Below, piece by piece: positions 25,094 to 26,010 of a stretch of 32,606 bases of DNA. Origin of the DNA: a virus; IMG/VR virus record IMGVR_UViG_3300037294_000198, positions 1-32,606 of that record. One strand, given 5' to 3'. Position 1 is the stretch's first letter. Each line of letters opens with the position of its first letter. The translations under genes and the position numbers were made by a program. The notes under the pieces were generated by a model. That model worked only from the letters and a program-made list of their open reading frames with translations. It did not search any database and was not told the origin of the DNA.

Positions 25094-26010
25094 CGGGGAC
25101 ATTGCAAAACCTTCGACCATAGCTTACTCCGTAGAGTTGATTACACTTGGCCTGTGCGAGTGCGTATGACAGAACGCTAGTAGTTGCTCAATTTTGTGTT
25201 TTTTGAGCTTACTGTGTCGTAACACCTTACTTAAAAAGTGTTGTGCAAATGAGACATTAGAGGCTCCAAGAGAGTGCTTCCAGTCCATGATGTGTGGATG
25301 GCTCGCTCCCCGGTTGTTTAAGGTTCCTCCGAAGGCTTTGAAGAGCAGATCAAGGGCTACACGATCTTTGATGTGTGCCGTTGCCTGTACTAAGGCTCTG
25401 GGTGTGTTCTGACTAGGTGGTTGTTTAAATATGTAACTACCGTCCCCGTCTAAATACCCAGCAACCCAAGCCCAGGTTGGATGCTTCTTAGCTTTCAATG
25501 GGCCTGAGTCTTCACGCGAAGCCCTTGTAAAAACCTTTAACTGCTCTATTTCTGTATCTGTTAACACTTGAGATCGGAATTTCTTCCACATATCAAACAT
25601 GTTTTGCAGGTGCTTTCCTTTGATAACCATGTGCTTTACAAGACGGGGGGCGATCATTTCTAGATGAGATGCCTTGCTTATCTTCCAAACTGAGATGGGA
25701 GACCAATCTCCTCTTTGCTCTTTCCTACAAACTGTACCCATGCCTGTAGTTATTGGAAGAGAAGCTACGTAGCCTTGTCTGTCAATGGAATCTGATGCTG
25801 TAAGGCTGATTGTTAAATAAACTCTTTTATTAGTATATTCAAAACCAATGTGCCCATCAGCATCTAGCAAACCTGCCAAATACTTTACTTCTGTTTCATT
25901 TACGTGTTCTGTCATTTAGTACCCTTCATTTGTTTATGGGCATTCGCTTCTCTCGTGTTGGGGACAAGCCCTTCCACGTTATTCAGTAATCGTTACTTGG
26001 CCTTATGCTA
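25094..26010 (-). ncRNA. group I intron in the major capsid gene (917 nt)
   Basis: Exon/intron borders are deduced from the coding frame and from group I rules. The 5' exon ends in U, and its last seven bases AUUUGGU pair with GCCAAGU at 26001-25995 to form P1, with U.G at the splice site and a 9-base loop. The insert ends in G at 25094. P7-like strands are ACUACUA (25184-25178) and UAUGGU (25121-25116) with one bulged base. P3-like strands are AACGU (25980-25976) and GCGUU (25177-25173), in the canonical order P7-P3'-P8-P7'. A UAAG joining segment precedes P7'. Pairings were found by eye; no covariance score was computed. The insert carries an endonuclease ORF. Confidence 0.85.
25124..25915 (-). 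CDS. LAGLIDADG homing endonuclease inside the capsid intron
   Basis: The 263-residue protein has two LAGLIDADG motifs: YLAGLLDADG at 12-21 (catalytic D20) and WVAGYLDGDG at 150-159 (catalytic D158). This makes it a single-chain, two-domain enzyme. It should cut intron-less capsid alleles near the insertion site and so spread the intron. It may also act as maturase. ATG 25915 follows GAAGGG at 6 bases. The stop lies just before the P7' strand, so the last codons overlap the presumed P7, P3' and P8 elements of the ribozyme. Enzyme class is secure. Target is inferred from its location. Confidence 0.92.
   Translation of the reverse strand: MTEHVNETEVKYLAGLLDADGHIGFEYTNKRVYLTISLTASDSIDRQGYVASLPITTGMGTVCRKEQRGDWSPISVWKISKASHLEMIAPRLVKHMVIKGKHLQNMFDMWKKFRSQVLTDTEIEQLKVFTRASREDSGPLKAKKHPTWAWVAGYLDGDGSYIFKQPPSQNTPRALVQATAHIKDRVALDLLFKAFGGTLNNRGASHPHIMDWKHSLGASNVSFAQHFLSKVLRHSKLKKHKIEQLLAFCHTHSHRPSVINSTE

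Follow-up and report, generated by a model that had tools for sequence, protein, structure and literature searches.

Does the gene of a homing endonuclease, which lies within a group I intron of a phage capsid gene, run through the ribozyme core of its own intron, and, if so, have the shared bases been selected as RNA, as protein, or as a switch between translation and splicing? The question was raised by a first-pass annotation of the window, i.e., the whole stretch of viral DNA that was analyzed (32,606 nucleotides, IMG/VR virus record IMGVR_UViG_3300037294_000198). We conclude that the locus very probably represents a mobile group I intron in the gene for the major capsid protein (MCP), that the 3' end of the LAGLIDADG gene in its loop L6 has crept into the core, and that the sequence from P6' to the stop codon is selected mainly as ribozyme and contributes to the protein no more than a tail that is probably disordered and dispensable. 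All features of the window described in the following are located on the minus strand.

The MCP gene is split by the intron. Exon 1 (26076-26011) reads MALGTNHITTTTGATFIPEIW + T, ending with PEIW + T, and its peptide and frame are those of intronless MCP homologues, e.g., L022 with ...FIPEIWSDEIIATY. In this uninterrupted homologue GAAATTTGGT is joined to CTGATGAAATC, and the boundaries are identical in the relatives that have an intron at the same site. Because L022 reads through uninterrupted at that place, the group I intron comprises exactly the 917 nt from 26010 to 25094, with the 5' splice site after U26011 and G25094 as the last intron base. A terminal G is shared by the window intron and the seven other same-site relatives with a parsed junction. 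The spliced MCP peptide is PEIWSDEIIATY. Exon 2 (25093-24234) has matches to Pfam Phage_capsid_2 (E 2.8e-8) and to the major head protein family phrog_267 (E 9.8e-46). Sequence inspection revealed P1 (26017-25995), which is formed by the exon sequence AUUUGGU (26017-26011) and the internal guide sequence GCCAAGU (26001-25995), and which in the window has a U.G pair at the splice site. The related introns L116-L159 are inserted at a number of different sites, of which several are within capsid genes.

The ORF in loop L6 (25915-25124) encodes a LAGLIDADG homing endonuclease of 263 amino acids (Pfam PF00961, E 2.7e-5), which contains the two motifs LAGLLDADG and AGYLDGDG. PDB profile matches were found to I-MsoI, I-OnuI, and I-SmaMI, and the Foldseek matches of the AlphaFold model (pLDDT 93.9) are LAGLIDADG meganucleases. 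The last well-predicted helix of the model comprises residues 239-252. Residues 253-263 were modeled with low confidence, with a pLDDT under 50 for residues 258-263 and averages of 62 and 45 for the last blocks. Judged from the model and from its absence in L109, L112, and L114, the tail encoded by the core is probably disordered and dispensable for the endonuclease.

The core was located by a comparison of relatives. A scan with Rfam, performed with the window and with the intron alone, gave no group I match at the gathering threshold or up to E 10, probably due to the ORF insertion of about 800 nt, which splits the core. Relatives were gathered in two rounds, yielding 20 and then 57 loci, which are viral contigs and one cultivated phage. 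A tblastn search of phages with the endonuclease as query retrieved one record only, that of phage HHBS10_2, and relatives were also sought among genome contigs, where none was confirmed. Parsing succeeded on both flanks of the ORF for 44 distinct introns, which are the basis of the pair counts. L117 was excluded from the count because its P4' did not fit the search pattern, and the wrongly parsed P6 of L136 was set by hand to TGG in the pair count that covered P8 and in the contrasts. The order of the elements is constant in the 44 introns, namely P3, J3/4, P4-P5, P6, the ORF, P6', J6/7, P7 5', a joint of 3 nt, P3', P8, J8/7, and P7 3'. J3/4 is TGAATAA or TAAATAA in most introns, and J6/7 is GCA, with ACA found once. 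The spacing from the start of J6/7 to P7 3' is 37 nt, which is constant in nearly all introns without an insert in P8.

Upstream of the ORF, the window intron contains the 5' strand of P3 (CGATTAC, 25992-25986), which covaries with 25144-25138 in the 44 distinct introns, P4 enclosing P5 (25978-25954, with CGTG at 25978-25975 and CACG at 25957-25954), and the 5' strand of P6 (GAG, 25952-25950). The latter pairs, with covariation, with the 3' strand CTC at 25160-25158, where the overlap of ORF and core begins; P6a' (CGC) is found at 25164-25162. Inside the ORF there follow the 5' strand of P7 (CAGGCCA with A25153 bulged, 25154-25148), which was identified by its spacing to P7 3' and by covariation, the 3' strand of P3 (GTAATCA, 25144-25138), which covaries with P3 5', and the P8 hairpin ACTC-TACG-GAGT (25137-25126). 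The last base of this hairpin is the T of the stop codon TAA (25126-25124), so that the frame crosses P6', P7 5', P3', and P8 and ends at the junction of P8 and J8/7. The 3' strand of P7 (TGGTCG, 25119-25114) is located outside of the ORF. The group I topology, a pseudoknot of P3 and P7 with P8 between them, is present and is supported by covariation.

P4 and P7 are paired in all 44 introns. P4 occurs in the variants CGTG/CACG, CGGG/CCCG, CTGG/CCAG, and CAGG/CCTG, and P7 shows swaps between C-G and A-U, between U-A and C-G, and between A-U and G-C. The pair G25152-C25115 of P7 is invariant (44/44), and the bulge is either A or C. P6 is paired in 43-44 of the 44 introns per position, with 5' strands that include GAG, AAG, CGG, TGG, AGG, GGC, and GAC, while the respective value for P3 is 40-44. 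The first four pairs of P8 are formed in all 39 rows with a short P8, and at three of them both sides have changed. Independent contrasts, i.e., intron pairs on separate branches of the protein tree, were averaged over random pairings: for P3, P4, P6, P7, and P8, a change in one strand had its counterpart in the opposite strand 85.7 times, remained unmatched 9.3 times, and was contradicted 0 times. A control in which the register of P3 was slid by one base yielded 10.8 matched versus 17.8 contradicted changes. By this comparative evidence, the corrected helices are kept almost perfectly, beyond chance, across 44 distinct introns. At C25149-G25118 the window differs from every other counted relative, all of which have U-A. 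An extreme compensatory change was seen in L183 (about 2273-2320, outside the count), the P7 centre of which consists entirely of G-C pairs (ACGGCCG/CGGCCT) and has the same C-G as the window.

The covariation of the relatives thus places P7 5', P3 3', and P8 inside the ORF and bears out the claim of the first-pass annotation that the endonuclease frame runs through the ribozyme core. Its second claim, that the same bases serve coding as well as RNA folding, receives support after the helix positions have been corrected by covariation. The overlap is shorter than the roughly 20 codons first proposed: from P6' (25160) to the stop codon it comprises about 36 nt or 12 codons, and about 15 codons when P6a' is included. 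The stop codon is indeed located just upstream of P7 3', which begins four bases past it.

A conservation of synonymous sites had been proposed as a check of the overlap, and constraint was found in the codons of P7 5'. For 38 relatives with the same frame, the synonymous identity is 0.31-0.39 per 30-codon block of the gene body, and it is 1.0 and 0.95 at the two codons at the start of P7 5' (25156-25151). In the relatives, the Leu codon in P7 5' is CTA together with T in P7 3', and CTG together with C, so that this silent change of the Leu codon accompanies a Thr/Ile change in the tail. The letters of the core are unchanged in relatives that read another frame or stop earlier (L106, L109, L112, L114). 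As they are the same whichever frame is read, the tail is shaped by the RNA. On the basis of these sequence comparisons, the overlap is constrained by RNA, not by protein, and the combination of a freely varying tail and constrained P7 5' codons points to passive core creep, not to an evolved dual-function code.

The positions of the stop codons were mapped onto the tree of the shared protein (49 rows). The stop position has changed at least 15 times, and the reading frame across the core at least six times. ORF and core overlap to some extent in 46 of the 49 rows; the frame is open up to P7 3' in 29 rows, and beyond P7 3' in further rows. The clade of the window comprises eight rows. Three of its members (L109, L112, L114) have an ORF that ends before the core, whereas the end is in P7 5' in another three (L106, L111, L115), in P3' in L110, and in P8 in the window itself. 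L110 has CAA and L112 has TAA at one codon, the stop before the core, and the two loci are 82% identical. From the neighboring relatives we infer that this change was the loss of a stop. The moving stops in the window clade and the L110/L112 pair are the pattern that core creep predicts. Core creep can be seen under way in the intron family, in which stop codons are located upstream of P6', within P7, P3', or P8, or downstream of P7 3'.

What would the overlap mean for the RNA? Translation of the endonuclease to its last codon would melt P6', P7 5', P3', and P8, and the ribosome, while halted at the stop codon (25126-25124), would occupy P8, J8/7, and P7 3', so that a single RNA presumably could not both fold for splicing and make the endonuclease. 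By analogy with the intron of the T4 td gene, a conflict between splicing and translation is likely in the window intron. For T4 td and its endonuclease I-TevI, translation lowers splicing according to passages in two articles, with reference to Gibb and Edgell 2010 (PMC2988022, PMC3073962), and a passage in the former also states that splicing is reduced when the hairpin at the start of I-TevI is lost (PMC2988022). The window has a weak hairpin upstream of the ORF start (UGCCC 25942-25938 / GGGUA 25924-25920; RNAfold, -4.9 kcal/mol), and this hairpin (25942-25920) contains the GGG of the probable Shine-Dalgarno site. For most of the relatives examined, a stem composed of other letters was predicted at the corresponding position, and in the window clade this hairpin often has a 13-nt A-rich loop. 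In addition, the frame of exon 1 (TTA GCA TAA) meets an in-frame UAA (26005-26003), which ends 8 nt past the 5' splice site. An in-frame stop that ends 5 or 8 nt into the intron is found in each of the nine same-site introns examined, including that of the window. Together with this stop near the 5' splice site, the hairpin at the ORF start might limit ribosome entry, as in T4 td; alternatively, the hairpin may be a structural element of the intron. The possible switch suggested by the first-pass annotation is plausible in its mechanism, and T4 td provides a parallel from the literature.

It could be argued that this conflict is an evolved regulatory switch, i.e., that the overlap was selected to make translation and splicing exclusive and thereby to time homing against capsid production. 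Such a role would be in agreement with the overlap in 46 of 49 rows, with the hairpin that directly precedes the ORF start in most relatives, and with T4 td, for which a passage in PMC2988022 reports that early translation of the endonuclease lowers splicing. However, the position of the stop varies freely, the ORFs of three relatives terminate upstream of the core, and, as the RNA letters are kept in any frame, the overlap can arise passively. We regard a switch as unlikely. Slightly less probable still is a protein function of the core-encoded tail, for example in DNA contact or as a maturase, with selection on both coding and folding. The QRLS motif, which is nearly constant in the relatives with frame 2, the continuation of the frame into a conserved zinc-finger-like module in L8 in six relatives, and the predominance, in the wider family, of frames that stay open to P7 3' (29 of 49 rows) or past it would favor it, but the same nucleotides are conserved where they are read in other frames or not at all (L106, L109, L112, L114), indels in P8 alter the tail and leave the RNA unharmed (L138, L147, L151), and the tail of the window protein is predicted to be disordered. 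The fold originally proposed, with P7 5' at 25184-25178 and P3 3' at 25177-25173, has virtually no chance of being correct, as its local matches in the window sequence (four bases, ACUA/UGGU, and six bases, GAAUGC/GCGUUC) are refuted by the near-perfect covariation of the other register, in which P7 5' is found about 30 nt further downstream, at 25154-25148, and P3 3', at 25144-25138, is paired with 25992-25986. The four-pair P7 ACUA/UGGU of that fold is fully kept in only 3 of 43 relatives, and the site of its P7/P3 varies in the manner of a protein-coding sequence, with the last well-predicted helix (residues 239-252) being encoded there.

Core creep, our preferred explanation, has an apparent consequence in other members of the family, namely, the gain or loss of a module beyond the core. 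Six relatives (L126, L136, L139, L140, L141, L148) have a frame that crosses P6', P7 5', and P3' and enters an enlarged L8, where it encodes a zinc-finger-like Cys/His module of the form C-x4-C-x9-C-x2-HY (at about 970-1065 in L141). Residues 263-291 of L141 match phrog_5351 (E 3.3e-5), and a Pfam search with the module gave sub-threshold matches only, to the WRKY19 zinc finger. The predicted model of L141 contains a final helix after a low-confidence linker, which is encoded by the core. For the L8 stretch of L126 versus L140, dN is 0.20 and dS is 0.96, which suggests that the module is under purifying selection on the protein; in other pairs, the silent sites have diverged too far to give a reliable ratio. 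L137 lacks 87 nt of L8 that are present in L141; the sequences flanking this stretch on either side are 91-92% identical between the two. On the tree, the presence of the module has changed at least five times, four of which are forced by well-supported branches; gains and losses could not be told apart. In these relatives, production of the whole protein needs translation across the core. We tentatively propose, with slightly less than even confidence, that in one branch the core is translated as an internal linker, that the endonuclease is encoded on both sides of the core with the zinc-finger-like module in L8, and that folding of the core and production of the full enzyme are mutually exclusive for each RNA at any one time. 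A literature search for an ORF that crosses the core into a module in L8 retrieved no report; as evidence of novelty, this is weak. A related known case is that of mitochondrial introns with ORFs fused to the upstream exon. The L8 variant is the most interesting part of our results and merits a separate study.

The window represents a known arrangement, core creep as in T4 td/I-TevI, in a new phage intron. Passages in PMC3073962 and PMC2988022 describe the T4 td intron as a group I intron with an ORF in L6 that reaches 3' into P6a/P7 sequences, and the hairpin that sequesters the ribosome binding site there resembles the window hairpin, which includes the probable Shine-Dalgarno GGG. However, I-TevI is a GIY-YIG enzyme and the overlap is about 20 nt, in contrast to a LAGLIDADG enzyme and about 36 nt through P6', P7 5', P3', and P8 in the window. 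The LAGLIDADG ORF in the LSU rDNA intron of Synechococcus lividus overlaps with P6/P7/P3/P8 and beyond by 81 nt (Table 1 of PMC3073962); it differs in residing in an rRNA gene and in its listed insertion in P8, compared to a phage capsid gene and L6. Core creep itself was described in a 2011 review (BMC Biology, PMC3073962), with which our series shares the variable 3' extensions of ORFs, a probably non-essential tail, and the probable loss of a stop by a point change (L110 versus L112). While the review presents the general idea, the present data add a series of many members in one intron family and the L8 extension. The capsid gene of mycobacteriophage LittleE also contains a probable group I intron with a LAGLIDADG-like ORF, and its splicing was verified by RT-PCR in LittleE (PMC3706429). 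However, that ORF is located on the opposite strand and therefore cannot cross the intron core as mRNA.

The cultivated phage HHBS10_2 contains the same intron type, and thus the competition of translation and ribozyme folding on one RNA is directly testable. In this Pseudomonas phage (PQ287653.1) the intron has 885 nt (L102, 2417-3301) and appears to split the major head gene. Its exon 2 (L102, 3302-4204; phrog_267, E 2.1e-55) is unannotated, and the record has a hypothetical gene on the opposite strand at this place. The LAGLIDADG ORF is named HNH endonuclease in the same record.
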